Shown here: piece after piece, positions 26,161 to 60,415 of the stretch
How the letters are laid out: each line of letters opens with the position of its first letter
Position numbering within the stretch: the first letter of the stretch is position 1
Source of the DNA: Echinarachnius parma
Taxonomy: Eukaryota; Echinodermata; Echinoidea; Clypeasteroida; Echinarachniidae
Reading direction: 5' to 3'
Length of the DNA stretch: 64,000 bases
Assembly: GCA_037951105.1 (NCBI GenBank)
Contig: JBAMJV010009027.1
Span: 1 to 64,000 of the forward strand
The notes under the pieces: generated by a model
The model's database searches: none
What the model was told of the DNA's origin: nothing
Seen by the model: the letters and a program-made list of their open reading frames with translations, nothing else
Program-made: the position numbers and the translations under genes

Positions 26161-26163
26161 CCG

Positions 26164-30835: not shown

Positions 30836-30839
30836 AGTA

Positions 30840-31808: not shown

Positions 31809-32033
31809 TATTATCGATAGCGAGGGCTCGCCCGTACAACATGTTTTACTACGGCTGCTCCGTCACAGTAAAATGTTATTAGGTACATTATCAAGACTTC
31901 TATATAAGTCTGAACTGTTATCAGCAATAAACATGATGACTTGGCAACCAAACATTCGCATTTGATCAAAGATTTATACCGGTCGGGCTTAATTAATATA
32001 TTAGACATAATGGCCCATACCATTATAATGCCT

Positions 32034-32623
32034 AGGTCACAAATGCTCCGGGCGCCGCACGATTTCATTACCTATGGCGGATGTTCTATGATTTCGTGCA
32101 GTTGGGATATCGTCTGCGATATCTTTAATGTAGCGGTCACACATTTTCCGGTGCACGTACGATGACTTGGGAGTTCAAGCAAATTTAAATCACACGGCTC
32201 CCGTAATTACAATCTGAGCGCTTGTACTGACACCTTACGGAACTCGTATGGACATCGCAAAAACTCTTTCAACTTTGGTTGACATTTTAAGGCTATCGTA
32301 CGATTTGGATGGCCCCAAATTCAGTCGAAAAAATCGTACGATATTCGAGGGGACAAAAAAACTACGGTGCCCGTACAGTGCCCTTGCGATGATGCTCTCT
32401 ACGACGTGTCTACGGGCTTACGGAAAGTAACAAATCGGCCGATGCATTTTTCAAAATTTTCATCCCGCGTTAAACATTTTTTTTTATATCATACGGCCAG
32501 GAAAAATACAACGGCGACCGCACGGTAGCTACGGCACCCTTGCGGATGCGCAAGATTTCACCTAAACGTGGTATCGTACGGGCGCCGTATCGCAAATCGA
32601 AGCATTTGTGACCTAGACATTAC
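32034..32623. mobile_element. Iterated-word MITE (CGTACGAT words)
   Basis: Ends CTAGGTCACAAATGCT and AGCATTTGTGACCTAG. The interior repeats CGTACGATTT, GCGCCCGTACG and ATCGTACGG. It lies about 120 bp beyond the stop of the Ig-GTPase gene and may affect its 3' UTR. Confidence 0.85.
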
Positions 32624-32741
32624 TGTGCCGAATACACAGATTTGGACCGCATCCCATGCAACGTATGTACAGAGTGATGCATTTGTTCACGAGGACAAAA
32701 GTGGCTCAAGACTTTAACAATTCGAGTTAGTGTGTTAGTTT

Positions 32742-33382
32742 TTAGCTTATAACGTTACTATTCTTCTCACGATTGTATTCTTCCAAGAAATGTGCATTCC
32801 TCTCTGCAGTATCTAGGCACACCAACAAGAAGTCTAGAAACTCAATGCTCCTATTACGATCCTCATCATTACTTTCATCAGTGTAGTTTACAAACGCCCA
32901 GATGTTTTGTTTCGGAATGTTTGTATAGTCGAGGATCATTTTTTTCCATTTACACAGCGTACTTTCTCCAGTTAGAACCCTAAGCATGTTATCTATTGTT
33001 TCATTACACGTGTCTGCTTCCTTTTCATCCTTTTTTTTGTTTGAAAAGACGTGTGAACTCATTGTACTGACTTTACGTTTGAATGTTTTAATTGGCGATT
33101 TGTTCTTATTGGTTTTTTCCTTTCCAGCATTAATTTGCTCATCTTCATGGGCAGCCGTACTCACCGTAGATTCCCGTGTTTGTACTTCTTCTTGTGTGCC
33201 CTGTGAATTCACAAGTGCGTTATGTTCTTGTCCCTCGTTACCATCGTTACCTTTGCTCTGCCCCTGGTGAAGACAAGTTTCATCATATTGGTTACCACTC
33301 ATCTCGTCTTGCATGTCCGTTATCTCGTCCTGTTCTTTGTCCAACATATCTGTGTGCGTGAAGACCACATGGACGTGCCGAC
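32742..33382 (-). CDS. Ig-GTPase gene exon 11: G4 motif, acidic insert and C-terminal tail
   Basis: Terminal exon, 641 bp, starting after TGAATAACAG and ending at TAA (32744-32742). It opens with strand RHVHVVFTHTD, the G4-like TxxD motif. Then comes a long, low-complexity, acidic Gln/Glu/Asn-rich insert and a basic Lys-rich segment (around IKTFKRK and SNKKKDEKE). The end, with NIWAFVNYTDE and a helix (SIEFLDFLLVCLDTAERN), resembles the IFI44 C-terminus 'v-x-N-Y-x-x-E ... L-x-x-A'. The roughly 100-residue insert between G4 and this tail is unusual for the family. No clear AATAAA follows; a MITE begins about 120 bp downstream. Confidence 0.87.
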
Positions 33383-36300
33383 CTGTTATTCAAAATGATA
33401 TAATGACATTAAACTACATCATTCTGTAATATATCACGTTAAAGGAGGGGTTCGGACGATTTTCAGCATTTATCAATCAAAGAAGCAATATTTTTTCAAC
33501 ACATTGCCTTTGTCTCAACGAAAAAGGACCAACTGGATCATTCACAATCACTTTGGGACTAGATAAGGTAACAGTTCTTGATCGAATCTGCCGCCAGTGG
33601 GATCTATCCCAGCATGTAATTTTCGTGACGTCGATGCCTCACTTTGCTGCCAATACAAAGCAAAGTGAGGCTGGCGCGTCACGCGACCACGTGATAGAAA
33701 TCAGAAGCGTACAGAAAATAGACGATGAATATCAAAAATTGCAGACATAAAACAGTATAAATCATCCTGATAGGATATTTTTTTGATAAAAATATATTAC
33801 CAATGAGTAATTTTTTAGATTCTGGTACATTAATTTTGAAATCGTCCGAACCATCCCTTAAAGAGAAATGGTACAGTTTTGGTGGAGAATACGCTCGAAT
33901 AAATGTATTTAATTGAAAGGTAAAGGAAAATTGAGTGTTGAAACTCCAAGACCACAAACATTTTGAAATAAACCAATGTTTGTTTGATCAAAATCCGTTT
34001 CGAAATGGCTGAAATGTTAAAATTGTATCCCAGCGGAAGATATGTTGGGGCCCAACATCTATTTCATATTTAACAAAATGTTTATAACGCGTTCCCATTT
34101 GTTTAATTATACTGATGTGGCATCAAAAGTGTGCTTTGAAATCTCTTTTTGAATAATTATTATAACGAAGACACACATTCACGATTAAAATAAAGGCTAA
34201 GCCTTACAGGTGCATGAAGGGCAACCTCTTGCGGTAACGGCTGCATTTGTTACTATAACTACCTTCTTACTTATGCATTAATACGTTTCTCTTCCATTTA
34301 AGTATGGTTGAATAATAAATAAATGAATTATAACGCGTAACGTTATACAGGGTGGCCCCAAAAGAACGGAACGGGGCACTTCCCAATATAGAGTAACAAA
34401 CTGATTATGTCTATCGGATAGGGTGTCTTTTCCAATGAAACACGATACCAAGAACAGTCATTTTGGTCGTGTAGTTTTTGTTTTAGGGCGATGTGAGTTA
34501 CACCATGTCAAGCTCCCATTTTTGTAATTTTTTACCAAGTCAGTGTCTGATAAATCGGACTTACTGCCCGTCATAGCGTCGAACAACGAGCAATACGGGC
34601 GCCATTGATAGTGTGCATTCAGCTGTGTGCCGAGCGAATGTCAATAGTTGTTCGATACTATGACGGACAGTTAGTCCGATTTATCAGGCAGTGACTTGGT
34701 CAAAATTGACAAAAATGGGAACCTGACATGGTGTCGCTCACAGCGCCCTAAAACAAAAACTACACGACCAAAATTACTGTTCTTGGCATCGTTTTTCATT
34801 AGAAAAGACACCCTCTCCGATGGACATAATCATTTTGGTACTATATTTTGGGAAGTGCCCCGTTCCGTTTTTTGAGAAGCCACCCTGATTACGTAATCAG
34901 TAGACAAGTTGGCTAATAGGCGTAGGAGGCGGAGAGTTTTGGACTACAGCCCCTGGAGTTTTGAAAACAACCACATTCGGTTAAAAGGCGCCTGAAACTC
35001 GTGCAAAACCATAACATATTCGGGCAAAAACATTATTTTCTCTGTTTATTGATTGTACGTTGTATGTTTGTTTTATAACAAAATAAATGCAGCCTTCCAA
35101 ATAAAAGGCGGTATAGATCTCACCAAATTTCTCGTGAATATCATCAGAAAACTTCTTTAGAAATTTCATGCCGTCTCTGAGACCAGCAGCGTCGCTGTAA
35201 AAGAAAATCATAAAATTAGCAGATAGAAATTAAATATGTCTTCAGACTCATTAATTTTCATGCAGATATGGCGAGTTAACAGGTTTTTCTGAACCAACTG
35301 CTTGGAATGCTAGTTCATGTTATCAAAATAAATATATATCACATGGTAGTAATCTTGTTGACGCTTTCAATAATTCCCGATATTAGTCAAAAGTTAATTC
35401 CAAACTATGCTACTTAATATCCAACGTCCGGCATTTAATCATGTAATTCCGTATTTTATTTGGATACGATTTGTGCATCAAAGCAACAATGGGAGCTATA
35501 GATATTTATTAAAATATGACCATGTTTATATATACTCCGCAAAACAAAACAAACTAAAAACTTGTATAGGTTGAAATATTTCATATTTATGTACAATAAA
35601 GTGTGCATTATCTTATATCAAATTCCAAGGAAATGCAGTCCTCTACATGCAGGGTATGAATTAAAGGTGTAATCGTTCATGCATGACATGCCATGGTCAA
35701 TACCAATAGCAAAGACTTGGAGCGGTTTCAGACTGAGGAAAATGCGTGATTTCAATCATGATTTGAGTTATTTTTCACTCCAATCACGGTATTTTTGACA
35801 GTGTGAACGGTAATGTCAATCACAGTGGCATAAATTCGTGATTTCAATCGGCATGATTTGAGTTATTTCTCACTCTAATCACGGTATTTTTGCCAGTGTG
35901 AACGGTAATTAGAATCACGAATCACCGGAATTCAAATCATGGTCCAGAGGTGTTTTCAAATCATGATTCACTCAAATCACAGTGCGAATCTCTAGTCTGA
36001 ACGGCTTGACCTCCAAAACATGATTTGGGAGGCGGAGCTTACGTGACCTTACATGCACTTCCGCCGATAAACCGGGCGCTCTTTCGCATGCATGATGCAA
36101 TACATGTACAGTGCGCGTGCTAGTATAGGACAGAGTAGGGTAGGCAATATATTAGCTCCTACGTTATATACCGTAAATGTTTGACTATAAGGACTATGGT
36201 ATATGGCTCTGTATATTGTCTTTAAAATAGCGTCAGCTGAGTCTAAAAGTAGGAAGTTTCCCGAGATGTTGAATATAATTTGAATGTGAATGATAATGAA

Positions 36301-39300
36301 TATTGATGATGAATAATGACTACTAAATGCAAGTTTGTTTACAGGAAACTTGCGATTGAAATAAACGATTGTATAACAAAGGGTATTATATAACAGATTA
36401 CTGATTCAAATTCCTCGATAGATGTTCAAAGCCACCACTTTCAACAGAGGCTAAATTAAACGGGGCCTATTGACATTACTTGCAGGTGGGAGAATATTTA
36501 CGTTCCTAGTATAAATTTGTCATTGGGAGGTATACAAGTTAGTGTTTCGTATCCAGACTTTCCTTGATTTGAGTGGGTATGGAAAAAATAGTCAGTCGCC
36601 ATAAAATTGATTAGCAGCTCCGTCACTAAATTTTCTAGACTCCATGAGAATTGCAGACAACACATATTTACATCGGACATTAACAAATAATAGGTGAAAC
36701 TTGAATATGCTAATAATATCACACCGCATTTTGATCTTTGTAAAATGTTATCTATGTACATAAAAACATGATGTCAGGGGTAAGGGGTTAGGTTTTTTTT
36801 TTTATTATTTTTATTATTATTTTTTTTTTTTTGTTAAGGATGGTATAATTGATCAGTGTATTTGTATATTCATATGAAATTCCCGATGTCAGCATATGGA
36901 TAATCATCTTCGGGAAGGCATGCCCTTATTACAGGAATAGCAGAAATAGCAACACAACACTGTTTGAAGGCGTTAAAGGGATAGTTGAGTTTTGGTATAG
37001 AGAGCGCTACACAAAATATTTTTTGTGAGATACTGAAAAACTGAGTGTCAAATCTGAAAGAGCATACAATTTCAATAACAGAATAAACTTTATTTGATCA
37101 AAATCGATTCAGAAATGGCTAAAATATCCAATAACATAACCATTTGTAATAAACGTGGGGCCCCACAATTAATAGATAATTTTGAACCAGCCGTTCATTT
37201 TCTTTTTTTTAATGCTTCATCTTTTCAAATATTTACAAAAGAGGTTTTTATATAGTTGTTGATTATCTCTCTAATCTTTATCTAATCTTTATTTAAACTA
37301 AACATCACATGCAAAATATTTTATTTAAAATTGTTGAAACCAATGAGTATTTAGAGACCGTCCTCTTGAATTTAAACGGCTCTTTTTGAATGATAACAGG
37401 CTTTTTACTTTAGTCATGTTGTAATGTTGTATTCCTTTCGAGCATGGTGGAGTAATAACTGTTATTTTGTAATGTAATGGTGCAGGTTTTGGTAACTAAA
37501 ATTCAGTTTGACCAAAACTGTTTCTCTCTTTACCAAAACTCAACTATCCCTTTAAGACTGCTATCGACAATAGAATCCCGAACGTGTCTTTTTTTTAAAT
37601 TCCATCTTGAATAAAGGCTGTCAGTGAATCATGTGTCCAAAAACTGTGATTGTAATCACAGTTTTTTCGTAGTGTGAAAGCAAGGTAACAGAGTGATTGT
37701 AAACATAACTCCAATCATGATTGCAATCACCAGTCTGAAACCGCTCAAAGTCTGTTTTTAAAAAAACTCGCGGCCTTTCGCTTTGTGTGAGTGATATAAG
37801 GTATTGAAAGGGCGTTTTTGAGAGTTGACACAATGGCCGATTGGGAAAAACACAAAAGAAGTTGTTGACTACTTTAAACAAAAATCTAAGTAGGTTTTTA
37901 AATAGTTGTTGATGATATCTCTTTTGAATCATTTTATTTAACAAAACATGAAATGCACAATTTTGTATGAAAAATTGCTAAAACCAATTATTCTTTTAGA
38001 GCGTCCTTTTGAGTTGTAACGGCTCTTTTTTTTTCAATGATAGCATAGTTTTTACTTAGTCGTTTGTAATTGTGTATATCTTTCGAGCATGGTGGAGTGA
38101 CAACTATTAGTTTGTACCATAATGATGCAGGTATTGGTTACTAAAGTTAAGTTTGACCAATACTCAACTATACTCAACTATCCCTAAAAGTAGACATGCA
38201 CTGACACACACATACACTCACACATGCACTGTGAAGGGAATATGTAAGTGTTATTGTTTCACAGTTTCCCACTGAACGATAACAGCCGGCGTAACATCCG
38301 TAGACACGCGGCGGAATCGACCGCTTGTATATTGCATGTTGTGCGTAATAAGCTAAATCCGTAATCTTGGTTTGCCATGCCAGAGCCATCCTCTTTCGAG
38401 AACTGTGTTGAGTTTTTATATTTCATTTCGAGATTTCAAATAACTTGTTTAAAAGAATCAAAAAGCTTTAGAATGATCTGTAGTCAGAACGAATGACACG
38501 TGGAATTTTTCAGCCCGAGGCGTGAAAAACCCTTATAGTTTTTCAATAACAAAGTATGTCCTAACTCACTTTATAGTAAGACACCATTCAACTGAAATGA
38601 TAGTAAGCGTTTCACTTAAAACAAGATGTGTGAAGCAAGTAAATTATGACATGTTTCAATGAAACAGGGCCAGGTTATGAGATCATCAACATACGGGTCC
38701 GTATTTTAGGCATAAAGCTTGTCTGTTTCATGTGTCCCCTGCAATTGTAATCTTAGTTACCTAAAGAAATGACATGTAAAAAACTGCCCAACTGATTGAT
38801 CAAGGACGACATCAGGTTCTGAATATGTTTGGACTACGGTGGAATTCTTAAGAATAACTTATTACATTTGTTCATGCTGAAATAAGGACGTATTCGACCT
38901 TTGCCGTAAAATCCCCATTGTGTTACATTTTGATGAAAATAAAACCTATAACGTTCACAATTTGTCTTCATGTATTTAGGATGAAGATGAACAGGTCACA
39001 TTTGTAACGTAAATGTATGCCATGTAATGAATATAGCGTCTCAAGTTATGCTTATCAACATTTATATGGTTGAGTGGATGTTCCATTTTTGCTACTTTTG
39101 AAAACAGACCTTGTTGTAGCTAATTGACAGTGACAAGTCATGCATGAATGATTTAAACTGGATTGTATGCCAATATCTTTAATTTGATATACAATATAAT
39201 TTATTTATTTCAAATGAATATGAACATTTGTTGTCCTATACAAATGTCCGGTTTCCTTTTTACGGAGTAAGGTTTGCAGTTTGGGCGCATTTACAGATTG

Positions 39301-42300
39301 TACAGTTATATCTGAACCACCTTATTGATAATTGTTTTATTATACTATTATTATAAACATACCTTGATTTGACGACAAAAACTGGGCAATCAATTTCTGT
39401 CCCACCAGTTGTCTTCTTCTTGGTGTCTTGTCCTCGTTTGCCACCTATAAAAGTATATCACTTAATGAATGTAGGTTTGTTTAAATCATTTCTTTATTCA
39501 GGAAAAGGTCACATTTATACCAGGTCCACTGTCATTCAAGACAGTGATAGGTAATACACACAAATACATATAATACAAAATGATATTACTCACGTCATTA
39601 TACAAAATAAATAAATCCAATGGAATTATGTACATACTTGACAAACTTAATTTAATGCTAAATTATACACAGACGATTAAGCATATTTCATACATCAATT
39701 TAATTATACTTCTTACTTTTCTATTATTCTTCAAGGCTATCATCAAACCTCCTATATTATTGTAAGCAATATTAAATAAACAGAGAATAAAAAGTTATTG
39801 TTATCGAACATCAATTATTTTATTTTTAGTTGTATTATAACTATCACAAATTGAAGAAAAAAAAAGTAACTTTCATTTCATATTTGTATATAATTATCAC
39901 TATAATTCCTTTAAATTCTATACCTCATAATACAATACTAAAATACGTATTGTTCTTGAGGAATACAAAATTTGTATTCCTCAAGAACAATCAAGCAATC
40001 AAGAACATAGGTTCGCCTCCCTTGTTTTGTATTGAATATTGACGGTTTGGCAGTGTATACACAGGCCCAAGCGAGGAAAGCGGGGGGGGGGGGGATGGAT
40101 GCGTTGGGTCCCGTTTTTGTAAATTATATTCCCACCACCCCCCCCCCCCCCCCCCCTTCCCCTTGAAACTCCTGCCTACGTGTCTTATGCATGTTGTGTT
40201 TTAAAACTGAATCTGAAGGGGAAAAAGCATCCATTTTTCATTGACGCTACACCACAAACAAATACAAGTATACATATTATTTGATGATTCCCCCCCCCCC
40301 CAATTTCCGTACATTATAGATCAAGAAATAACAAAATCTTCTAACAATAATTTCACATTCATGTAAAATACAGACATAGGCATAATGCTGTTTCAGTATG
40401 TGTATGGAAAGCATTATATGATGTAACAGGGAACTGAATTCTTACTTCATACTTAGCCAATCGTGTTCACCCCAAATCTCCCATGCATTTTCTATGGGAA
40501 CCCGGATGAAGGCTACCAAATAATACTAGCCTATGCGTAATGCTACTGCAGTTTAGCTAAGTAGCCAGTTAGGGATTATTATATTATAACCTCATATAAT
40601 TATTTGAGTTACACTTCAATTCCGTGATATATTTACGTGATCGCGGTACAGTAAAGAATTCCACTTTCAATCACAAACAAATTTGATTCCAGATCTATTA
40701 TACAAAGTGCAGAAGTAGGCTACCGTAAAAGTTTGACTAGAGGCGCTACTTTCTCAGGAGTAATCAATAGCGCCATCAAACATCCAACATGATCCAGTAT
40801 AATGAATATGTATCTAGCCTTTTGTCAACGATCTTCGAGCCGGTCTAAATGAATATTCATGATAGCATTATCACGCAAAGTTGGAAAAGATGAACGTTAC
40901 TAAAGCCCTGGTCACAACCCACCGTGCGTGTTTTTAGTCCGTACGGTTTTTGGGGAGGCCACGGCCGCCACGTTTTTCTTAAAACGTAGGGAGGGAGTGG
41001 CAAAGGCAGGGAGGGAGTACCGGCAACGCACGTCACACGCACGGTGTAAGTACGTGGCCCGCACGCCACGCCTGGCCGTGAGCGGTTGCGTGCATCGTAC
41101 GTTGCGCACGTGGTAAGTGCGTTGTACGTGCTTACAACGTGCTTACAACGTGCTTACAACGTACGGTCTCCGTGCGGTTGCTACGTTATCGTACGGAGGC
41201 CGTACTTACACGTGCTGCTCACGTACGGTGTCCTTACTCACTAAGTGCGTACAAGTGCGAACAACCTTTTCTGCTCATATTATACTGCAGAAATCAGTGC
41301 GCACAACGTGCGTTGTAAGTGCGGAGCACGTGCTTACTCGGTACGGTCCACGTGAGTAAGCACGGACCACGCACTTATCACGTGCGCAGCACGCACGTGC
41401 GCTCATTGGCTGTAGAACGCAGCGAAAACGCAGCGAACGCAGCGAAAGTTCCTCGTGCACTAAAAGTGCTACGTCGTGTCTGCGTGCTCCCAAATCCGTA
41501 CTGAGTCGGTACTGAGTCGGTACTCACCACGTACGGATACCCAAATTTTGCCCACGTTTTTGCAAGTAGACAGCACGCACGGGGCACGCACTTGCAAGTA
41601 CGGCGGGTTGTGACCACCGCTTAAGGGTTGAAATCCAATCACGCAAGCAGAAGTACCTCTTGGGTCGGTGGTTAGTGCAAATCAATGTAAGGTAAACTTG
41701 CATCACGGTATGTAAAGCCGTAGGTTCAAGACGCACTGATAAGTGATTTTTTAATTTTTTTTTTCATAGGAAATTATGTTTTAACAGCGTTTTGTGCAAA
41801 TGAATTGGAATCATAATTATAATTTTTGTGTTAAATACACAATTGTTACATTTAGGTGAAATCCTGACATTCTGCTAGTATTTAGCTTTATATATAGTGT
41901 ATGCATGAAGGGGGAGGGGGGAGGGTAATTTTAAAATTGATTCATCACCTTGTTCCAGCCAACTCATTCATCTTTTATTTTGTAACCTGCATTTAAAAAC
42001 GATGTTTTCATGATTGGTTTTGTTTTCATTCATTCAAATACAGTACGCACATATGTATAGCACCACCTGTTTAACAAATGGAACTCTGTTTAATACTGAA
42101 AGAAATTATATATTTTTTACGTTAGTAGACTGAACGAATTATATAATTTTATAATCTGTATTACAAATCGGACACGGTTAATACTGATACTAAATATAAT
42201 CAGTAACCGCGCGCTTAAAGTATAGTACACAATATGTACTCGAGATTACTAATTCCGACGTTGTTTTACTGTGACTATTACGTGTCCGTCTTGTACGCCA

Positions 42301-51300: not shown

Positions 51301-54300
51301 TTGTTGTGTGTGAACACTCTGATAGAAGCAAAGGCATTTGGGGGTCAAAGATATGAAAGTGAGAGAGGCCAAAGTGGCGACATTATGTCTATATGTATGT
51401 TCTGTGTGTATCAACGTCATTTAGCCTCGGAAGAATAATCAGCTAGGATCGGAAACTATTGACCCTCATTTTACTACACATGCCTTATTATAGAAGATAA
51501 GCAGTTTACAGCAGTATTTTGCACCATTCAATAAATATAAGTATAGTAATATTACAAATATATGCTAATACCAATGTATACATGCTGTACTTACCAACTA
51601 GTTGTTCGCTTTCTTCAACTGTTGTTACTACTGTTACAGTAGTACTCTCAGGCTTGAGTTCTGACTGTTTGTCCAAGAACTTGCAAAAGCTTAGAACTAT
51701 GAAATAATGAACATGAATCAATAGACGTCGAAGAGCTATCATTGTAATTTAGCATCATTATTACTTCGTTAATTGATATTTTCATTTATATGCATACATG
51801 ATAATTTATGATAATAATAAATATCAGTATTAAAGGGGTAGTACAGTTTTTGGTAAGGCTGAACTTTAGTAACCAAAACCTGCACAGTAACATTACAAAT
51901 TAATAGTTATAACTACACCATGCTCGAAAAGTTTACAAAATTACAAACGACTAAGTAAATAGCATGTTATCATTCAAAAAGAGCCATTAAAACACAAAAA
52001 TGCGCTCTCTAAAAAGGCATTATGCATGTGATGTTTTGTTTAAATAATTATAAAATACATAGAGATCATCAACTACTATTTAAAACCGCTTTTGACAATT
52101 TTTGAAAAAGTTTAAGCATTTTTACAATTTCTTTTTAAATCATCGAATAAATTTGGGGCCCAAATTTATAACGATCTGATATATTTATTGATATTTCAGC
52201 CATTTCTGCACCGATTTGGACCAAATAAAGTTTATTATGCCATTCAAATGCAGGTTCTTTCAAATTCGACACTCAGTTTTTCATTACCTTACAAAACAAT
52301 TGTGTTGCAGCGCCCTCTTTACCAAAACTGAACTACCCCTTTAATACAAAATAATCCTGATATATATGATGATTACAAAACATCATTATAAACATTATAT
52401 AAATCATTACGTTGTAGAAGAAAATGTAATGTTTGACTTTTTCCACACCTGTGAAGCTTAATTAAAATAAAATTACTACAATCTTGACAAACATTACAAA
52501 GATGTGTTCTAAATTATAACAGATTATGTCACTTCGAATGTCTATGTTGAAACAAAGAAATGCCACTGGTGTTTGAATGGATATTTTCATACACGTAAAG
52601 ACGTTGGAGGACAGAAACCCAACCATAAGGGTTATTATGAACAACCTGAAGAATATCTAGAAGGGATTATGGCACTTCATTGCTTGAAACAAAGTGCGTT
52701 ACAAACAAAGTGCCAAAGCCAGGTTAGCGAACACAAGGGTATGGTGACTACCATAAAAGGGAGCTCGTTGTGCTCAAAATTTCGTTGTATCATATAATAA
52801 TGAATCAATGAACGTGTGTCCATTTTTGTATCCAACCTTACCTCTAGCGAGGGTGGGAACTTTTCTTTTAAATGAGGGCAAATGTCCATGATTCATATAA
52901 CATATGTGAAATACAAATATTATATTGTCAATAGCTATCATGGTAGGTACGGGAAAATCATTGGCCCGAATTCTTATCAGAGGCACAACTTTAGTCTCGG
53001 CAAAAAAAACACGAAACCGTTTCATAGCTGTAGCCAATTGATTGTTGTCATTATTGCCACCACATATATTCTAATTTCTTCTTTTTAGTATTCAATCAAT
53101 GCAGACGTCCGTACAAAGATTCGCTTGACATTCCAGTCAAATATTACCGGTCACCAGTAATCTAAAGCAATCCGTAATCTAGATCTAGATGATCCAGGAC
53201 GCAATATTGTTGGTTCCGGCCAAACTATGACTGGAATGTCAGGATACACTTTGTGTTCGTGATTTTGTGCTCTGGTCTTGGATTGGTCTGGACTAAAGTG
53301 GTCCCACTGATGAGAATTTGGGCCATTATGTTGAAAGACAAATCACAACTTTAATTATATACCTCGAGTTGGTAGGAGTCTCTCTAGGTATGACCTTCGG
53401 TATCTGTACAGGTAAACGAACCCTGAGCAGCAGATGATCGGCAAGAGTAGCAGGAAGAGGATACACAAAACCGCTGTAACGCCTGATGAGAGACCTGTAA
53501 GGGAACGACATGAAAATCATGTTTTTGCAAAGATATACTCAATGTTTGGTCATTTATTATTTCGTAGTCTTGGGCATTTCGAACATAGTTATAAATTAAA
53601 TCCCATGTGGTTCTACTTTTGAATTTCAATTCTGAAAGCGAATATGCATCAGTGGGATACACGCATACAATTAAATTTCGATTGCTTACTTCAGAATTGT
53701 ATATATGTCACTCATCTTGGGTATTGAATCTAGTGCACGAATTATTTAATAGTGAGTTGACTCATGCCTTGTAATTAAAGTTTATAGTAAACATGGCGGC
53801 CATGTTTACTATAAACTTTAATTACAAGGCATGAGTCAACTATTAGTAAAGCTATTTTTTTAAACATTAAACGTTAGTATTCAAACTAATAATAAAACAT
53901 GATAATTGAACGTGTTGCAAAATAGTATTTATTTGATGTATTACAAATTGACTACCCCTTTATAGGCACGTTAATATAGCTTGTATTATGACTACAATTC
54001 CAGCCCACTCTTGTCAATGAACACTATTATATTTAAAGAGGCTTGGGGTCTTGGAATGTGATGCTGTGCAAAGAATTAAATTCACATCATCTATATCAAA
54101 AGATCTACACAGTGACTAAAACTTTTAAAAAATTGGAATTACCAGAAGGAGGAACATGAGGAAGAGGGGGCAATACTCGAACAGATATTGTTCCATCAAA
54201 CTGCCATGTGCCATTTACTGCCTTCCCGTTCGCCATACAAGTGAACGAAGTGGCGTCGGCAATTGCTGACAGGCTTGCTGACATTGTGACCCGCGTGTCG

Positions 54301-56511
54301 AATGTGCCATCCTCTCGCTGTGTGTGAACAACCTGTGTGTCGTTGATGACTCTGCCGGCTGCACCCTCTGACCACGTGATGTCGGTCACCTTTGGTTTGG
54401 CGCCACTTACAGAACAGTCCAGCGTGAACGATTCTGCATCAGTGGTTACGTTATGCGTGCACTTCGCGCAATTATGACTCTCCTGGCCTGCCGTACAGCT
54501 GTCACATTGGGTTATCTGAACGTACGGTTCTTCGGGGAGGGCTTTCATGAAAAAGGGTGATAATAATAAGAACAATCCTATGTAAACATGCACACATCGG
54601 TCAGAAGAAACTTGTCGCTCATGACAATGATTATCGACTGAATGACATTACAAAAGTAAAGATTACAATTTAAAGGGATGCCTGTAAAGCCTCTACGAAA
54701 ATTACTTGGAGCTTCCTCGTTTCTCTTCTACCGTGTTGTTTAGCTTATGGTAAGAGAATAATAAAATAGGATTAGATTTTTTTTAAATGCCCCTCTAGTA
54801 TAACGATATCTATCATTCAGCTCAAGAGCGTTAATGAATGGTCATAAACTGTATAAACGTCATACAGTAATTCGTTGTAAAATCTGACGCATATTTTCGC
54901 TTTTTTAACCAGGAAAGCAGTGTTCTTTTTCATTGAAACTTGTAAACATTATTCGGACATATCTTACAATGATTTTGGTACAGGATTGAAGTCTCAAATG
55001 TCATTTTGGGCAATATCTGACACTTTACAGGTGCACCTTTAATAATACGCTTATTACGAATAATGATGATACAAATCATTATATTGAACAAAAGGATTTC
55101 AAACACAAACATGTTTGTGCCTACAAATTGGTTAAACATGCGTCTGTGCAATAAAAGGAAGCTAAACTAGTTATATGCCTACCATAGACCGTCATTATTG
55201 TGCTATTCTGGAGCTGCGTCCCGTCCGTTTTCCACACTTTGCAAGTGTAGTTCGCCCCGTCGAGTACCTCGATGTTTGTGACGTGAAGCTGGTAGTTCTC
55301 GTTCCAGGAGAAGCGACTGTTGCTTCCAATGACTTCATATGTATCATCAGCGTATCTGAAGACGGTTTCAACTGATGGCGGTTGACGGGAATTGTCGATC
55401 TTGTTCCAAAGGACTTTGCTAGCGGTCCCAGTGAAGTCACATGGTAGGTATTCACTGGAGCCCTTCCACGTGGTGATATTCGGTTTGGTGTAGGCAACAA
55501 CATTTTGTGGATCTGTGAAAGAATATTAAAAGAAACATGTAGATTATGATTGTGTGAGAATTAAATTGAAGCCCGGGAAAGATTGTTTACATCCACACAA
55601 AAAAAATACAGATTATAAGTTCACTTCCTTTAACATCTCCGGGCTGTGTCAGTTATTTTAAAACCCACCACTGTCAAGCTGTAAAAGCAACTCTAATAAA
55701 GGAACAAGCATGAATGCTAACGGCCAGGGAAATACTTGCACAAGCCAACTGCTCAATCTCGCGCAATAATGCCAAAACATACTTATAGTAGAAGATGGGA
55801 ACTGTGTTTGAACACACGAAACCGTAATACACAAATCTGCTACCCCAGAAAACCTGAGGAAACTAGCCTCATGACCAGTATAACGCTCATGCCTGAGAAA
55901 GACACTTTTAGTCGAGCTGTCTCGGAAGACATCGTTCGTTTCAACAGAAATATAAGGTTCCTTAAGGAATTTTTAGGCACCTACCCTGTTCAAGAATCTA
56001 CATGTACATGGTGCATGTAAGACCAGGATATTCATATTATACAGTCACATAATGATGTATAGCATGTATGTAATTATTAGCTCCAAACTAAATGTAATCC
56101 TTGAAGCAGAACCTACCATGTACATGATGCGAGAGCCTCTACAATGCATCATCATAGTACAAGGAGAATCACCGGAAAGCCAATCAAACTTAGAATCTCA
56201 TCTGAAGAACATTCAAGCAAATAGTGGATGGTCAAGGTCACCCATATGCCACCGGATAATATATTGTGATCATAGTGATCATGCAGTCTATTTTGATGTG
56301 ACATGTAATAGATCTCTGGTAAATGAAGTCGATGTCACAATGCTCAAGTCAGCTAAAGGGATATTAGGAATGCCCTTGGTAAATTGAGCATATCTCAGAC
56401 CACTGACAATCTCAGTTTGTTGTGAACTGGTATGGGTGAAAGTGCAACATCGAAGATCTGGCAAACGCTAACGATATTTGCAGGTACTTGTACGATGGTG
56501 GTAAATGATAG

Positions 56512-56542
<31 letters not shown>

Positions 56543-57281
56543 GGTGGTGGAGGTGATGATGATGTTGATGATGATGATGATGATGATGATGTTGAAACAC
56601 ACGAAAAAAACACCCACAAAATACATAAATTGTATTTATAATAATAATAATAGGAATATTTATATGGCGCAGCTACTATAAATATATACTCTACTGCGCT
56701 TAAATAATTATGATAGGTTTTCCAGGCCAATTTCCCACATTACGCGCCCAAATTCGTTTTATGTGCATTCAATTTCGTCAAATTGCCGTGGAGGAGTCGC
56801 TTTGGTCATTCAAATTCATATTCCGAGCATGCATATTCGTATATGGGCTCCCAAATTTCAAATCGCACACTTCAAATTCGCAAATGGGCATTCGATTTCA
56901 TCATTGGGCGCTATTTTCAACAAATGGGCATTCAATTTAATACGGCAAGCTTGACAATCGCTCGTTTGTGCATTCAATTTCGTCAATGGGTGACCAATTT
57001 CCATACATGCTCATTCAATTTAAGTTACACAAAAAAACATCCATACGTATTCACAAATAAACATACTGTATATACATTTATTTATACAACCACATACATA
57101 GTTACGCATATAATATATAGGCGTACCTAGGGGGAGGGTTGGGGGTTCAACCCCCCGGTCTCGACTGTCATTATCGCTGGTCTCGGGCCTCGAAAAGTGC
57201 GCATAGCACTGGTCTCGGCCTAAAAAAATGTCGAAAATTACCGGCCTCGGCTTTGAAAATGTCCTACGACTACCCTCCCCC

Positions 57282-57312
<31 letters not shown>

Positions 57313-59798
57313 ACACACAACCCCCTCACAGGTTTCTCAAGCACTGGGTCTTGGTCTCGACCTCGAAAATTGTGGACCGGACCTGGTCTCGGTCTTGAAA
57401 ATGTCGTAAATTCGCGGTGTCGACTTCGGATATCTTCTACGACTATCACCACCCCCGCTGACAGAAAATGTTTCTGAAGAAATAACCCCCCCCCCCCCCC
57501 CTTTAACAAATCCTGGGTTCGTTACTGGGTACGCTCACATAAACACACGCACACACATTCACCTTTTATCTTACATAGTCTCAACCATTATTTCGTCAGG
57601 CTATATTTTTCATTTTTTAGATGTACTTTTCAACATTGAATCTTCACTTTTCGTTATTCCTCGGTCACATTCGTCTAGATCTGTTTGATGTTCAATCATG
57701 TAATCTGTATTTTCTTATTTTTACATTCACTCGTTCATCATCTTGTCTTAACTTTATCATCATGCGAGTTCATAATGTAATTTCATCACATGATGTTATT
57801 TGTCATGTGATCGTTATTCATATATTGTATCATACTTTTTGTTCACCATTTTGTATTTTTATTTCCATCATGCTTTCTATATCATACATGTACCACGATG
57901 TTAAATAACATGTCCCCTGCACATTTTTAATTTGAATGCCAATGTAATGAACTTGTTTGCCTATGCGCGAATTCGAATGACCGAAATGACACCCGAGACT
58001 GCTAGAGATGAAATTGAATGCCCAATGACGAAAATCAGTGCCTATCTCTTACAATAGAATGGCGCAAGTGTGAAATTGGTCGCTCTGTTACTCAATATGA
58101 ATGACCAAAAACGATTTTGAATGACGATATGTCGATCCAAGCGTGGATTAGACGAAATTGAATGCTGCTTATATGAAATTGCATGAGAAAATAGCGAAAT
58201 TGACCGGGAAAACCTATATTAAATTATTATTGATGAAAACAGTTATCCTAACACTAATCCTAACAATGCGAACCCTGACCTACATTTTGTCATGTTTGTG
58301 ATAATGTGTACAAAAAAATAATTCCTGTTGGATCACGATGCAAATTACCTTAATTACTAATTTTGTGTGTGTGTCCACCAACATAGATTTCGCATCGTGA
58401 TTTTGAGTTATGTTTTTTTTTTTTTTAATGATCGGCCCTGGTATTTGCTTACCCAGTACTCGAACATCCGTCTGGTTGCTGATGATGAAGCCGTTGTAGT
58501 TCGACACCTTGCATGTGTACGTCCCAGAGTCCGACTCAGTGAGATCATTGAACAGCAGGGTGTGATGATCAGCGGTGATACCAAAACGTGATCCGTCTAT
58601 TCCTTGTCCGTAAGATACAGTCCCACTAGGCTGAGGTTTGGTATACCATGTAAGAATTGTCTTAGAATCTAAGCATAACGATACAATTTGAAAAGGGTTA
58701 TTACGTTGAAAGAATAGATTTATCAACGAAGGGTATAAGTATCAAAGCGTATATAGAATAGATTTATCAACGAAGGGTATCAGTATCAAAGCGTAGAATC
58801 GATTTATCAACGAAGGGTATCAGTATCAAAGCGTAGAATCGATTTATCAACGAAGGTTATAAGTATCAAAGCGTGTTCCACCGTTTCCCTGTCCGTAGGA
58901 GACAGACCTTTGAGGCGTATGATACTATGATACCATGTATTGGAATGTATTAAAAAGCAGAAATTAAATTCATGGAATCTCATTTTAATGGCAGGGTACG
59001 GAGATTATCGATGATACCAAAACGTGGTCCATCTTTTTATTCCCATGTACGATAGTCCCTAGAGGATCAGGTTTCATGTAGGCTACCATTTTATAATTGT
59101 CTTGTAGTATAAGCAGGAGGAATACTTTAGAAAAAGGTCCTAGAGCATATTCTTGAACAGCAGTGTACGAGTTTTGTGATAGTAGTAGCAAACCTAAAAT
59201 GTGAATGATTATAATTATAAAATACCAATTTAGTTTACGATGAATTATAGCAAAGAACATTTGGTAATATACTGCAGTTTTGTTATACTCTACTTGATAT
59301 TTTAAGAGGGGGTAAATAATATTCTTGACTTGACCACGATATTCAAGCAATAGCTTGCATATTTGCAACACGGGTACTCAATGAGTTCAGCATTGTTATC
59401 ATGGATATTTAAAACACAATTTTCTACCGTAGTAGCGTAATTCAGGTCTCCGTCTTTTATTACTAATATCGCGGGTTTGAACCCCTACCCCCTAATAATT
59501 ATGTAAATGTTGTTACCATGGTCATTATTATTTATCATCATCACTGCCATTATAATTTTTACTATTAAACTTATTATCATAATCATTATTATTTTTACCA
59601 AAGTGAAGGTTTTTCTGTTCGATGTTGTATCCTACCTTTTAGCCAGTACACCGCATATGGTGCTCCTAGGTACTCGCAAGTAAGGCTGGGATCGGTATGT
59701 CCGAGCCAGAGAGTCAGAATTGGTGGGGTCCAGACAACATTATCCGGTACTGCCGCAGACTGTATTATAACTGAAGAGATACAGATAATGTTGTACAT
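32742..59798 (-). CDS. Predicted Ig-domain transmembrane receptor with cytoplasmic IFI44-like GTPase domain (11 exons)
   Basis: Exons (minus, 5' to 3'): 59798/59770-59636, 58668-58453, 55512-55183, 54541-54143, 53494-53363, 51696-51595, 47132-46962, 45915-45751, 39444-39363, 35194-35124, 33382-32742. Every junction has AG/GT and compatible phase. With the in-window Met at 59798 the chain is about 823 residues: Ig1 (~17-125), Ig2 (~127-236), Ig3 (~237-369), TM helix (~375-398), then P-loop GIMAAGKS (486-493), DTRG (540-543), THTD (619-622) and a C-terminal helical tail. P-loop, DxxG and TxxD order and spacing match the IFI44/IFI44L family, but the usual TLDc-like N-terminus is replaced by Ig-TM. 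Inferred role: a cell-surface recognition receptor signalling through a GTPase. The 5' end is uncertain: the first exon also has a strong phase-1 acceptor at 59771, so a separate signal-peptide exon may lie upstream. The link across the large introns is inferred from phase and domain order, not from transcripts. Confidence 0.82.
33443..33857. mobile_element. TTAA-flanked MITE, AGG-x-GGTTCGGACGATTT ends
   Basis: TTAA 33439-33442 and 33858-33861; ends AGGAGGGGTTCGGACGATTT and AAATCGTCCGAACCATCCCT. A central hairpin (CCTCACTTTGCT ... AGCAAAGTGAGG) is present. It lies 57 bp from the last Ig-GTPase exon's acceptor. Confidence 0.85.
34345..34889. mobile_element. Full-length foldback MITE, same family as 29986
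   Basis: Ends ATACAGGGTGGCCCCAAAAG and the matching CTTCTCAAAAAACGG complement region, ending CCACCCTGAT. The inner arms with TCATAGCGTCGAACAAC are shared with the other copy. Confidence 0.87.
35124..35194 (-). CDS. Ig-GTPase gene exon 10: helix before G4
   Basis: 71 bp, phase 2 to 1. Acceptor TTTTACAG, donor GTGAGA. Read with exon 9 it gives SSDAAGLRDGMKFLKKFSDD, an amphipathic helix as found between the core strand and the G4 strand of IFI44-type GTPases. Confidence 0.78.
35717..37750. mobile_element. Iterated-word element (AATCATGATTTGAG words)
   Basis: Ends TTGGAGCGGTTTCAGACTG and CAGTCTGAAACCGCTCAA. Both arms repeat AATCATGATT and CAGTGTGAACGG. The middle is a non-repeated stretch plus a TTAA MITE. 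Confidence 0.7.
36977..37551. mobile_element. TTAA-flanked MITE, GGGATAGTTGAGTTTTG family
   Basis: TTAA 36973-36976 and 37552-37555; ends AGGGATAGTTGAGTTTTGG and CAAAACTCAACTATCCCT. Near relatives at 19127, 12262, 37885 and 51834. Confidence 0.85.
37885..38188. mobile_element. Truncated GGGATAGTTGAG-family MITE
   Basis: The right half of the same family (TTTTTAAATAGTTGTTGATG through ACTCAACTATCCCT); the left end is missing. Confidence 0.7.
39363..39444 (-). CDS. Ig-GTPase gene exon 9: core strand IDCPVFVVKS
   Basis: 82 bp, phase 1 to 2. Acceptor TTTTATAG, donor GTATGT. A Lys/Gly-rich loop is followed by EIDCPVFVVKS, which corresponds to the IFI44-family strand 'i-h/d-C-V-x-x-V' after switch II. 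The next exon must begin with one base, and it does. A 6.3-kb intron separates it from exon 8. Confidence 0.78.
40901..41623. mobile_element. Iterated-word MITE (ACGTGCTTAC words)
   Basis: Ends TAAAGCCCTGGTCACAACCC and the complement of TAAGCGGTGGTCACAACCC. The interior is built from ACGTGC, TTACAACGTGC, GTACGG and similar words, giving a CpG-rich island with chance open frames. Confidence 0.88.
42303..42455. repeat. Isolated GC-rich island with self-complementary words
   Basis: About 150 bp of GCGCGCGCGGTAGCGC and CGCGCAGCGCCGCGCC-type sequence, then GCTAGCTAGCTAGCTA. Nearly every word has its complement within the stretch. CpG-dense in an AT-rich background. No gene start is evident. Confidence 0.6.
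43000..43410. repeat. GACCTTTGAC-type dispersed repeat
   Basis: ACCTGCGACCTTTGATC, TTTGACC, then GTTTGGTGACGATTGGTCAT and TTGAGATATGGCAAAAAG. The order is that of a repeat I recall as widespread in marine invertebrate genomes. It contains a long chance open frame (43016-43408), which I do not call as a gene. Confidence 0.4.
43648..43668. repeat. Short interstitial telomere-like repeat
   Basis: Three and a half TTAGGG units; a degenerate GGGTTAGGGG run lies at 42515-42535. Confidence 0.7.
43909..43990. repeat. Hairpin, ~37-bp arms
   Basis: CCGTGTAGATGGCCTAAAAA and TTTTTAGGCCATCTACACGG bracket CATTTTACACCTAC and GTAGGTGTAAATG with a 5-base loop. Confidence 0.88.
44200..45370. other. Intron stretch without recognised feature
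   Basis: Inside the intron between GTPase exons 8 and 9. No repeats or frames worth calling. Confidence 0.5.
45751..45915 (-). CDS. Ig-GTPase gene exon 8: switch region with DTRG (G3)
   Basis: Phase 1-1, 165 bp. Acceptor TTTACCACAG, donor GTAAGC. The chain runs from a Thr/Ser/Gly-rich switch I region (candidate G2 Thr in LTTSGD) to strand RLHLVDTRGM, the DxxG motif. It ends in an acidic helix (NVKERLEEI). The spacing from the P-loop (about 47 residues) is normal for small GTPase-like P-loop domains. Confidence 0.87.
46795..46866 (+). repeat. Retroposon-like tail (ATTGA)n
   Basis: AAGCAAGAATAAAATTGAATTG and further ATTGA units. A reversed relative is at 24250-24290. Confidence 0.45.
46962..47132 (-). 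CDS. Ig-GTPase gene exon 7: P-loop (G1) of IFI44-like GTPase
   Basis: Phase 1-1, 171 bp. The acceptor is TGTTTTCCAG and the donor GTAACC. A predicted helix (ELEEKREQIRNYV) leads into strand VINIGLYG, then GIMAAGKS, a full Walker A GxxxxGKS. It is followed by AFIKSLHFALKG, which matches the IFI44 pattern of a helix ending in F-x-G after the P-loop. This exon identifies the family. Confidence 0.88.
47290..47640 (+). repeat. CATAAAGTTGGA repeat, copy 2
   Basis: Uninterrupted version: CACTGTTGCCCATAAAGTTG, GTTTGCGCCCCATAAATC, GCAGGACCTTTGATGAT, GCGTATGTCCAACAAGTCAT. It lies in the intron upstream of the P-loop exon. Confidence 0.65.
47815..48835. mobile_element. Iterated-word foldback element (ACTCGCAACGA words)
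   Basis: Ends GATTTTCACAGCGACTCGCA (left) and the reverse complement of GATTTTCACGGCGATTCGCA (right). The inside repeats TCGTTGCGAGTCG and ACGAATCG words throughout. It is interrupted by the hAT-like MITE at 48292-48523 and lies in an intron of the Ig-GTPase gene. Confidence 0.7.
48292..48523. mobile_element. hAT-like MITE with exact 8-bp target duplication
   Basis: Ends CATGGGCGTA and TACGCCTATG are flanked on both sides by GTCAGTTC (48284-48291 and 48524-48531). Most of the interior is a long hairpin (arms around 48355-48410 and 48425-48475). It is nested in the 'GACTCGCAACGA'-word element. Confidence 0.9.
48845..49415 (+). pseudogene. Decayed coding fragment, copy 2 of an unrecognised protein
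   Basis: Open from a start at 48869: ELLEFQLYFEDLDNVTKSLE, WVRAITSLTEQMTDKGFVDF, LAKSSKITAFTKR, then IHYDCETPLVFPGENAIVHR. After a stop at 49192 another frame keeps protein-like content (MSCIYLDTSHFEHACDVLAQ; ALTKEWDEQSFYSVN) with one more stop. It lies on the strand opposite the Ig-GTPase gene, inside its intron, next to a MITE. Not identified. Confidence 0.5.
49520..50545. mobile_element. ~1-kb inverted-repeat element, TTCATGCATGA words
   Basis: The left part (ATTCATGCATGACTTGTCA, AGGTCTGTTTTAAAAAATAG, GGAACATCCATT) is the reverse complement of the right part around 50290-50420. The right end is TTTTTGTGCGGAGTATA, related to the TACTCCGC ends at 35534 and 39260. Confidence 0.65.
50813..51320. 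mobile_element. Iterated-word MITE (TATACGATGAT words)
   Basis: Ends GTGTTCACACACAAACATTT and TTGTTGTGTGTGAACAC. The interior repeats CGTATAG, TTTATACGA and GTGTGTGAACGCTCG, and contains an exact palindrome around TCGAGAGCTGACAAGC. Confidence 0.8.
51595..51696 (-). CDS. Ig-GTPase gene exon 6: cytoplasmic linker
   Basis: Phase 1-1, 102 bp (34 codons). It was chosen because a phase-1 acceptor (TTTCATAG) and donor (GTAAGT) bracket an open stretch that keeps the frame between the TM and GTPase exons. The product is acidic and Thr/Val-rich (STTVTVVTTVEESEQ), with no recognised domain. It is the least constrained exon and could be alternatively spliced, since skipping it preserves frame. Confidence 0.6.
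51834..52340. mobile_element. TTAA-flanked MITE, inverted relative of GGGATAGTTGAG family
   Basis: TTAA 51830-51833 and 52341-52344; ends AGGGGTAGTACAGTTTTTGG and AAAACTGAACTACCCCT. The interior is the reverse complement of the other copies. Confidence 0.83.
52510..53090. other. Open, protein-like stretch of unknown origin
   Basis: The plus strand reads VETKKCHWCLNGYFHTRKDV, then GYYEQPEEYLEGIMALHCLK to a stop at 52797. A minus frame over 52774-53037 is also open. It lies in an intron of the receptor gene between the TM and linker exons. Composition suggests a decayed transposon reading frame; unidentified. Confidence 0.3.
53363..53494 (-). CDS. Ig-GTPase gene exon 5: transmembrane helix
   Basis: Phase 1-1, 132 bp. 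Acceptor CCCTTACAG, donor GTATAT. It encodes a strongly hydrophobic stretch (TAVLCILFLLLLPIICC) followed by YLYRYRR, a basic stop-transfer. This fixes a type I orientation with Ig domains outside and the GTPase inside. Confidence 0.86.
53755..53841. repeat. Perfect 43-bp-arm palindrome in an intron
   Basis: Arms 53755-53797 and 53799-53841 are exact reverse complements with a single G between them; the centre is CATGGC-G-GCCATG. It lies in the intron between the Ig3 and TM exons of the receptor gene. No terminal duplication was found, so it is not obviously a MITE. Confidence 0.92.
54143..54541 (-). CDS. Ig-GTPase gene exon 4: Ig3 domain with Cys-rich insert and juxtamembrane stalk
   Basis: Phase 1-1, 399 bp (133 codons). 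It starts after ATGAAAG and ends before GTAATT. An unusual Cys cluster near the start (CDSC...NCAKC) precedes the regular Ig core (FTLDCSVSG, ITWSEG, TSFTCMAN). The extra four Cys could form a small disulphide knot or make intermolecular bonds (inference). A Pro-rich end (PPLPHVPPS) reads as a stalk before the TM exon. Confidence 0.86.
55183..55512 (-). CDS. Ig-GTPase gene exon 3: Ig2 domain
   Basis: Phase 1-1, 330 bp (110 codons). The acceptor is TTTCACAG, the donor GTAGGC. It has first Cys (YLPCDFTG), Trp (KVLWNKI) and second Cys (DGANYTC), the C-W-C pattern of a V/I-set Ig domain. Sequons NIT, NYT and NST suggest extracellular glycosylation. The domain is complete on one exon. Confidence 0.87.
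55736..56387 (+). other. Two open stretches of unknown origin
   Basis: 55736-56020 (includes SRAVSEDIVRFNRNIRFLKE) and 56052-56387 (includes EPLQCIIIVQGESPESQSNL) are protein-like but lack ATG contexts or splice partners that I can defend. They sit opposite the receptor gene, between its Ig1 and Ig2 exons. Possibly a relic gene or transposon. Confidence 0.25.
56517..56595 (+). repeat. (GAT/GGT)n microsatellite
   Basis: GATGAT, then GGTGGT, then GATGAT units in an intron of the receptor gene. Confidence 0.93.
56709..58222. mobile_element. Iterated-word element (CATTCAATTTCG words), host of another MITE
   Basis: Ends ATAGGTTTTCCAGGCCAATT and the complement of ATAGGTTTTCCCGGTCAATT. The arms repeat CATTCAATTTCGTCA and AAATGGGCATTC. 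The centre holds the element at 57121-57532 and an AT-rich spacer. Related copy at 28500-29185. Confidence 0.78.
57121..57532. mobile_element. Iterated-word MITE (GGTCTCGG-x-CTTGAAAATGTC words)
   Basis: Ends GCGTACCTAGGG and CTGGGTACGC. The inside repeats CTGGTCTCGG and GAAAATGTC words and holds poly(C) tracts and a (CA)n run. Confidence 0.65.
58453..58668 (-). CDS. Ig-GTPase gene exon 2: second half of Ig1
   Basis: Phase 1-1, 216 bp. The acceptor is ATGCTTAG and the donor GTAAGC. It completes Ig1 with the hallmark DSGTYTC motif around the second Cys, and the N-glycosylation sequon NQT occurs near the end. The split of one Ig domain over two exons is seen only for Ig1; Ig2 and Ig3 each sit on one exon. 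Two decayed copies of this exon lie just upstream in the intron. Confidence 0.85.
58710..58874. repeat. About 40-bp minisatellite, four units, between Ig exon and relic exon
   Basis: Unit: GATTTATCAACGAAGG, then GTAT-A/C-AGTATCAAAGCGT. Four tandem units run from the 5' flank of the live exon into relic copy B. The unit end resembles the exon words GATACCAAAACGT, so the array may have grown from a duplicated exon edge. Confidence 0.8.
58868..58945 (-). pseudogene. Relic copy B of the second Ig1 half-exon
   Basis: Plus-strand blocks TTCC-x-TGTCCGTA, GA-x-ACAG, GAGG and ATACCATGTA correspond in order to the live exon. It abuts the minisatellite at 58710-58874. Confidence 0.6.
58985..59110 (-). 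pseudogene. Relic copy A of the second Ig1 half-exon
   Basis: Shares with the live exon (58453-58668) the blocks GATACCAAAACGTG, TCCxTCT, ATAGTCCC-x-TAG, GxxGGTTTxxTxTA and AATTGTCTT in the same order on the plus strand. Small deletions and substitutions destroy the reading frame. Confidence 0.65.
59636..59798 (-). CDS. Ig-GTPase gene exon 1 (or 2): signal peptide candidate and first half of Ig1
   Basis: Encodes the first half of Ig1 with the first Cys (SLTCEYLG) and Trp (VYWLKD). It ends in phase 1 before GTAGGA at 59635. Two start models exist. An ATG at 59798 gives a short hydrophobic leader (MYNIICISSVIIQSAA) that could be a signal peptide; another in-frame ATG lies at 59873. Alternatively the acceptor TCTCTTCAG ending at 59771 starts an internal phase-1 exon at 59770. 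The latter suits the all-phase-1 pattern and would put the signal peptide further upstream. Confidence 0.75.
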
Positions 59799-59884
59799 TA
59801 AAACAACAAATATGAATAGGGTGTCTTTTGTATGTAAGAAGAAACACGGAATAGATATTTCAAATGTGAACATAGAAAGCAATG

Positions 59885-59966
59885 TTGGGATTGGTCGGTC
59901 CTGGAGAGTTGCTTTGGGTGGGGTACAGGCACTTAATAATGAGGCAACATTTATCTGGTACTGTTA
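59885..59966 (-). pseudogene. Relic copy of the Ig-GTPase gene's first Ig half-exon
   Basis: Read on the minus strand, the stretch follows exon 1 piece by piece: CAGTACC-x-GATAA, TGTTG, ACCCCACC, a CTCTC-x-x-GG block, then ACCGA and ATCCCA. Indels break the frame. It lies just upstream of the live exon and is cut by a TTAA-flanked MITE at 59964. Confidence 0.6.
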
Positions 59967-59967
59967 A

Positions 59968-60415
59968 AGGCATATATGCGTGGGTTATTAGACGCGTGGA
60001 TCCATCTTGCGCACTTGTACGCACGGTACGTAATCCCCATTGGCTCAGTTATAAGTAGCGATCGCAAACTGTCCCACTTCCGAATACCCGAGTCAAAAAT
60101 GCATCAAAAATAGTCGCGTTCGGAATGTTTGTACTTCTAGTCGAATGGAGATCCATCAGAGATGTTTACGAGCGAAAATATCACGTAACACGTTTAACCG
60201 CAACCGACTTCAAAGTGCCGCCGTTTGATGCCTAGGGCTGTCAGCGTGAGAAATTTGTTTGCTGCATGCAATTTCATAAGAAGGCCTTTGTTCAGATATT
60301 TCGAAGCACCTCTCTTCGATCGATCCAACACATATCGTGAGTTTACCTCGAGAGATTACGGTGGAGTCGAGTTGGAATTTGCTGACTACCCTTTATAACC
60401 CACGCATATATGCCT
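59968..60415. mobile_element. TTAA-flanked MITE with exact 21-bp inverted ends
   Basis: TTAA at 59964-59967 and 60416-60419. Ends begin AGGCATATATGCGTGGGTTA on each strand. It interrupts the upstream end of the relic Ig exon. Confidence 0.88.

Follow-up and report, generated by a model that had tools for sequence, protein, structure and literature searches.

The analysed window is a whole stretch of 64,000 nucleotides of Echinarachnius parma (C9011:1-64000), and it was compared with the 1.2-Gb genome assembly. The mitochondrial contig of this assembly (C14600) points to an echinoderm: in cox1, TGA is read as W, AGA occupies four serine positions, AAG occurs at lysines, and one AAA falls where asparagine is expected, while the next frames resemble nd4l and cox2, a code and gene order typical of echinoderms. 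On its minus strand, from 59770 to 32742, eleven exons join into a single open frame that encodes 823 amino acids from an ATG at 59798, and the encoded chain presents, in order, three immunoglobulin (Ig) domains, a single transmembrane (TM) helix, a linker, and a P-loop GTPase-like domain. The Ig domains, the TM helix with its YLYRYRR sequence, and the motifs GIMAAGKS, DTRG, and THTD had all been placed here by the initial annotation and were recovered by Pfam searches, hydropathy, and motif comparison. The features of the locus, in window coordinates, are as follows.

59636..59770, minus strand: exon 1, first half of Ig1 (V-set) with the first C and the W; paralogs on C6597 and other contigs
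58453..58668, minus strand: exon 2, second half of Ig1 (V-set) with DSGTYTC; paralogs on C6597, C8636, and other contigs
55183..55512, minus strand: exon 3, the whole of Ig2 (V-like) in one exon; phase 1-1
54143..54541, minus strand: exon 4, Ig3 (C1-set/C2-like); phase 1-1
53363..53494, minus strand: exon 5, TM helix and YLYRYRR; phase 1-1
51595..51696, minus strand: exon 6, cytoplasmic linker
46962..47132, minus strand: exon 7, G1, P-loop GIMAAGKS; phase 1-1
45751..45915, minus strand: exon 8, G3, DTRG; phase 1-1
39363..39444, minus strand: exon 9, GKRGQDTKKK...CPVFVVKS, the strand preceding G4; phase 1 in, phase 2 out
35124..35194, minus strand: exon 10, inter-strand helix; phase 2 in, phase 1 out
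32742..33382, minus strand: exon 11, G4-like THTD, low-complexity insert, end of the G domain (IWAFVNYT...FLDFL), and stop
18335..60859, no strand: 42.5-kb unit that contains the whole gene as modelled

All exon junctions were in phase 1, with the sole exception of the junction between exons 9 and 10 (39363/35194), which was in phase 2. Eleven phase-compatible exons in one chain had been proposed from the outset, and a complete frame was indeed obtained once exon 9 was included; when it was left out, the ten-exon model broke phase ahead of the exon at 35194. Exon 9 was missed by three pattern scans of the intron in which it lies (45750-35195) and was recovered by translated comparison of the equivalent intron in three paralogous loci. 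Comparison of this intron with the middle of a provisional IFI44 sequence gave weak matches that were taken as chance. Other isoforms are possible, since exons 1 to 8 are all phase-symmetric. The 5' end is unsure. Its candidates are ATG 59798, shortly before a good phase-1 acceptor (59770), and a second in-frame ATG at 59873; no in-frame ATG was found at the corresponding 5' position in paralog A (C6597). A scan of positions 59771-64000 for a signal-peptide exon (first exons of 37-170 bases) yielded nothing better than ATG 59798, and the signal peptide may be encoded farther upstream, by an exon of its own.

Between exons 1 and 2 lie partial, degenerate minus-strand copies of exon 2 (59080-58992 and 58915-58868) and a 40-bp tandem repeat (58711-58874). 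Two related plus-strand open reading frames (RAITSLTEQ...DKGFVD), one inside intron 6 (48824-49192) and one at 2866-3114, probably belong to a repeat element; Pfam at an E of 0.01 gave no match in four other open reading frames of the window, this pair included, and Rfam gave no match over its thresholds anywhere in the window. The 42.5-kb unit is repeated in tandem at C9011:60860-103415 (99.94% identity over 38,621 bases and 99.57% over 3,981 bases), and the repeat is also seen inside the window, where 18335-21475 corresponds to 60860-64000. Either the duplication is very recent or the assembly contains the unit twice in error. The exon 2-3 spacing, taken to the same offset, differs by ~32 bases between the two units.

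In Pfam, the Ig part matched V-set with an E of 1.2e-17 (64.5 bits; cut-off, 26) and Ig_2 with an E of 7.8e-16, and Ig_2, ig, I-set, Ig_3, and C1-set were all over their cut-offs, which assigns this part to the immunoglobulin superfamily. Exons 1-2 and exon 3 encode two V-type Ig domains and exon 4 a third, for which the C1-set match had an E of 9.2e-5 (3.7e-6 in a second scan) and 27.6 bits (cut-off, 21). The TM helix has a mean hydropathy of 2.89 across 19 residues and is directly followed by YLYRYRR, and no second strong hydrophobic stretch was found C-terminal of it in the protein. According to the positive-inside rule, positively charged residues flanking a TM helix mark its cytoplasmic side, and because YLYRYRR follows the helix, the GTPase-like half is predicted to be cytoplasmic.

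Within that half, the G1 pattern GxxxxGK[ST] is present as GIMAAGKS, the G..GK columns being invariant in an alignment of eight rows, and the G3 pattern DxxG is present as DTRG. At G4 ([NT]KxD) the window protein reads THTD, with T and D retained and K replaced. Close copies read THID or THKD and others THKG, THGN, THGD, or TREG, the last of these in some Ig-linked relatives. We use the name GTPase-like because G4 reads THTD and varies among relatives. In the window subfamily, G4 is separated from the final part of the domain by a low-complexity insert; it measures roughly 110 amino acids here, is far longer at C6597:3026, and is absent from the Ig-linked relatives on C3402, C10577, C14107, and C183. 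Exon 11 (33382-32742) ends earlier than its counterparts on C4930 and at C6597:3026 and does not have their common SYK..HP tail.

The family of this domain was sought in Pfam, where the G domain gave RsgA and MMR_HSR1 only, both sub-threshold; septin, AIG1, and IRG domains were absent from the Pfam matches of this protein. We then used a family profile of eight rows, with the insert excised from its three long rows. Against the PDB, the best match of this profile was septin CDC10 (E, 3.6e-4; 23.1 bits), followed, among other GTPases, by septin-9, EngB, IRG, and GIMAP at E values of 0.04-0.23 ("Interferon inducible GTPase 1C," 0.11; GIMAP4, 0.23; GIMAP and IRG entries spanning 0.11-0.41); these matches were weak and fell in the P-loop half. 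Septins and IRG and GIMAP GTPases are not known to have a receptor ectodomain. Searches with the model that lacked exon 9 gave candidates that were set aside, namely just two calcium-dependent kinases with phmmer against the PDB (E, 0.03-0.11) and CobT alone in NCBIfam (0.031, through the acidic insert), and PADLOC gave no match for that model.

The initial annotation had called the cytoplasmic arm an IFI44-type GTPase. In favor of a true member of the IFI44/IFI44L family, the profile gave a provisional human IFI44 sequence 19.6 bits, compared with 4.6 for the best of 500 shuffles, in two co-linear patches only (P-loop and beta5/G4), and T-H-x-D at G4 is common to both. However, TLDc had no Pfam match in the window protein at a maximum E of 10 (787-amino-acid model minus exon 9 and the first residues). 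In addition, a C-terminal profile scored the provisional human IFI44 among shuffles, a single-sequence comparison with it matched at the P-loop alone, the profile scored septin CDC10 higher than IFI44, and a query with the provisional IFI44 (run without a positive control) found no match in the whole genome at an E of 1. IFI44 is not known to have a TM helix or an Ig domain. We dropped IFI44-like membership because there is no TLDc, the C-terminal part is unlike, and the best PDB relative is a septin; a true IFI44/IFI44L-family arm is, in our judgment, unlikely. On its profile matches, the G domain is placed in the septin/IRG/GIMAP/IFI44 neighborhood and is assigned to none of these families. 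The antiviral connection drawn in the initial annotation is conjectural.

A second alternative comes from sea cucumbers. AjNLRC4 of Apostichopus japonicus is described as a membrane receptor with Ig domains outside (31-132 and 251-353), a TM helix (483-503), and a P-loop domain inside (600-757), identified as NACHT by SMART; its Ig part binds bacteria, and it oligomerises, binds actin, and drives phagocytosis (PMC8699970). Like the window protein, it is an echinoderm protein with an Ig ectodomain, a TM helix, and a P-loop NTPase on the cytoplasmic side (predicted in our case) in matching order. A window protein that belongs to this Ig-TM-NACHT family and has a diverged NACHT would accord with the like order of parts and with what is probably the same phylum. 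The two were compared by published description. Against membership, NACHT (PF05729) gave no match in the window protein at a maximum E of 10, at which the HMMER filters lose most matches above ~0.1, and a second TM helix is described after the NACHT of AjNLRC4 (PMC8699970), whereas the window protein has one TM helix and a GTPase-like domain. In the genome, 99 NACHT matches were scored of 608 candidates, all over cut-off and on 92 contigs, and none of these contigs carried an Ig2/Ig3/TM or GTPase search match. We therefore consider a diverged member of this family improbable. The NACHT matches themselves indicate that NLRs have expanded greatly in this genome.

A further protein of A. japonicus, AjNLR-new (1197 amino acids), also combines Ig, TM, and P-loop NTPase parts in an echinoderm, with an Ig-TM-NACHT order; the reported topology is the inverse, with the Ig part intracellular and the NACHT extracellular (PMC13133943), whereas the GTPase-like part is predicted to lie inside here. 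As it was worded, the initial statement that no described receptor of such a layout was known is not supported, given these two published Ig-TM-NACHT receptors (PMC8699970, PMC13133943). The general layout is already published, and what is new is the AjNLRC4 plan with a different P-loop domain. An Ig-TM-GTPase receptor was not found in the literature among the matches listed, which is weak evidence of absence, as subscription journals were thinly covered.

Relatives of both halves were sought across the genome. The GTPase half gave at least 118 matches on 55 contigs, Ig2-Ig3-TM gave at least 108 matches on 53 contigs, and a later search with Ig1 gave 74 matches; match types were set by query range, and some matches contain stops where they run beyond an exon. 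Both GTPase and Ig2/Ig3/TM matches were present on 25 contigs. Locus number is possibly overcounted, since some of the copies may represent haplotypes or stem from recent duplication. Among P-loop-exon matches, 29 of 32 shared a contig with an Ig2/Ig3/TM match, and in 26 of these 29 the nearest such match lay upstream on the same strand, ~1.5-8.4 kb off (P = 3.6e-13 under four equally likely arrangements, the loci being related and not independent), or in 25 of 28 when the second C9011 tandem copy was left out. The three exceptions were C4930:64109 and C6597:3026 (~6.3 kb and ~3 kb, respectively, from a contig end) and C5835:68887. P-loop-exon matches on C13836, C939, and C11824 had no Ig2/Ig3/TM match on the contig; the Ig1 search added a same-strand upstream Ig match 4.9 kb away on C13836, and on C939 and C11824 there was still no Ig match. 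Matches with P-loop and DTRG in one frame (22 on 19 contigs, one of the 22 with an internal stop) had an Ig2/Ig3/TM match on the contig in 0 of 22 cases, and a by-eye comparison found no Ig1 match on these 19 contigs.

Individual loci retained the exon series to different extents. Locus A on C6597 preserves the exon order, with relatives of exons 1-5 and of exons 7-11; its frameshifts and a P-loop changed to SIMSAEKS indicate that some copies have decayed. Locus B on C6597 has exons 1-8 and then reaches the contig end, and the compact C8636 locus has relatives of exons 2-8 (from the second half of Ig1 to DTRG) within ~4.5 kb, its exon 6 relative having been found by eye. In the divergent C12774 and C9540 loci (Ig3 and P-loop exon 40-49% identical), the Ig3, TM (by eye), and P-loop exons lie within ~1.7 kb and ~2.3 kb, respectively. 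The exon set is beyond chance, since homologous exons recur with order and strand kept at many loci.

The recurrence of this unit at many loci, with phase-1 splice sites kept, upholds the initial proposal of one gene, and we are highly confident that the Ig domains, the TM helix, and the GTPase-like domain are fused in a single gene. Two neighboring genes, an Ig-TM receptor and a downstream GTPase that co-duplicate as a unit, would fit a short Ig-TM isoform ending at exon 5 (where read-through of the donor meets a stop within three codons), an intron 6 of ~4.5 kb with repeats, evidence that is so far genomic, and the 28 of 53 Ig2/Ig3/TM contigs without a GTPase match, but this explanation is very improbable, since exon 7 has no in-frame ATG upstream of the P-loop, whereas the one-frame GTPase exons read at six of the 22 loci have one in 6/6; since the phase-1 acceptor of exon 7 is kept in 8/8 covering rows; since the order is kept in divergent loci, with a gap of only ~0.9-1.1 kb from TM to P-loop exon; and since the splice sites and frame of exon 6 survive a 30-nt in-frame deletion in a C6597 copy. 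Some of the 28 Ig-only contigs hold close relatives near a contig end, and many hold distant Ig matches, which may be other proteins. The other covered exon borders mostly agree between copies, with exceptions such as the exon 1 donor in C6597 A.

Selection was assessed as NG86 dN/dS of the window gene versus each copy (intervals in parentheses). Versus C8636, dN/dS was 0.30 (0.20-0.41) for the ectodomain and 0.13 (0.08-0.30) for GTPase exons 7-8; versus C6597 A, it was 0.32 for the ectodomain and 0.32 for the GTPase exons; and versus C6597:3026, it was 0.25 for the GTPase part. For the TM exon, the intervals versus C8636 and versus C6597 A reach ~1. Versus the close copy C6597 B, the ectodomain value was 0.33, and those of TM plus linker (1.03 [0.47-2.77]) and of GTPase exons 7-8 (0.67 [0.28-1.86]) had intervals that include 1. 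Against distant copies, both the Ig and the GTPase-like halves are under purifying selection. Between the window and C8636, dS was 0.37 in the ectodomain and ~2.4, near saturation, in exons 7-8; this difference suggests that ectodomain exons were exchanged between subfamilies, or that the genes have a mosaic history or underwent gene conversion.

Stand-alone GTPases appear as the sisters of the fused genes. When 16 P-loop halves were placed in a tree, one branch (support, 99/97) split the 10 fused from the 6 stand-alone sequences, where two rows counted as fused (C4930 and C6597:3026) have no adjoining Ig match owing to contig ends and the program warned of long branches meeting. Three of the six one-frame starts read MGAGESK, MGSGPSK, and MGGGPST, and 4 of 12 C-terminal stretches at other loci had CaaX-like ends (C9843, CSVM; C3389, CIVM; C6956, CSVM; C11298, CEVM), on contigs without an Ig2/Ig3/TM match; the two kinds of ends thus come from different loci. 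We take the MGxGxSK-like starts to resemble the N-myristoylation motif and the CSVM, CIVM, and CEVM ends to resemble the CaaX motif. These ends suggest that the sister GTPases may be lipid anchored through myristoyl-like or CaaX-like termini. Lipid-anchor-like GTPase relatives were recorded at L032, L034, L035, L042, L043, L044, and L049.

We consider it probable that the fused genes form a lineage-expanded family of single-pass surface receptors with an Ig ectodomain of the V-V-C type, a short linker, and a GTPase-like cytoplasmic arm. Some GTPases pair through their G domains, and by analogy with these and with AjNLRC4 we propose a mechanism of clustering followed by assembly, in which we place slightly less than even confidence. 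Ligand binding or cell-cell contact would cluster the Ig domains, which would crowd the GTPase-like domains beneath the membrane; once crowded, these could pair or polymerise in a nucleotide-dependent manner, and the assembled domains would recruit cytoskeletal or membrane-remodelling partners. The TM helix of the fused branch would be the counterpart of the possible lipid anchors in the sister GTPases, and the low-complexity insert of the window subfamily is probably a docking loop. The most likely role would be in phagocytosis or self/non-self recognition in coelomocytes. Taken together, and loosely, a fused receptor of a lineage-expanded family and this mechanism seem reasonably likely. More doubtful, and offered tentatively, is a new class of "receptor GTPases," encoded by a multigene family of echinoderms. 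In these proteins, Ig recognition outside the cell would directly switch a self-assembling GTPase carried on the same polypeptide, and the class would have arisen by one fusion from a family of lipid-anchored GTPases, with ectodomains exchanged between subfamilies.

Animal receptors usually signal via kinases, adaptors, or death/TIR domains. Ig recognition and a GTPase-like switch in one chain would make this family a testable case of a ligand-gated GTPase. The family, taken with the Ig-NACHT receptors of sea cucumbers, suggests that Ig ectodomains were coupled to a P-loop switch more than once among echinoderms, and it bears on the recognition systems that are built by animals without antibodies.
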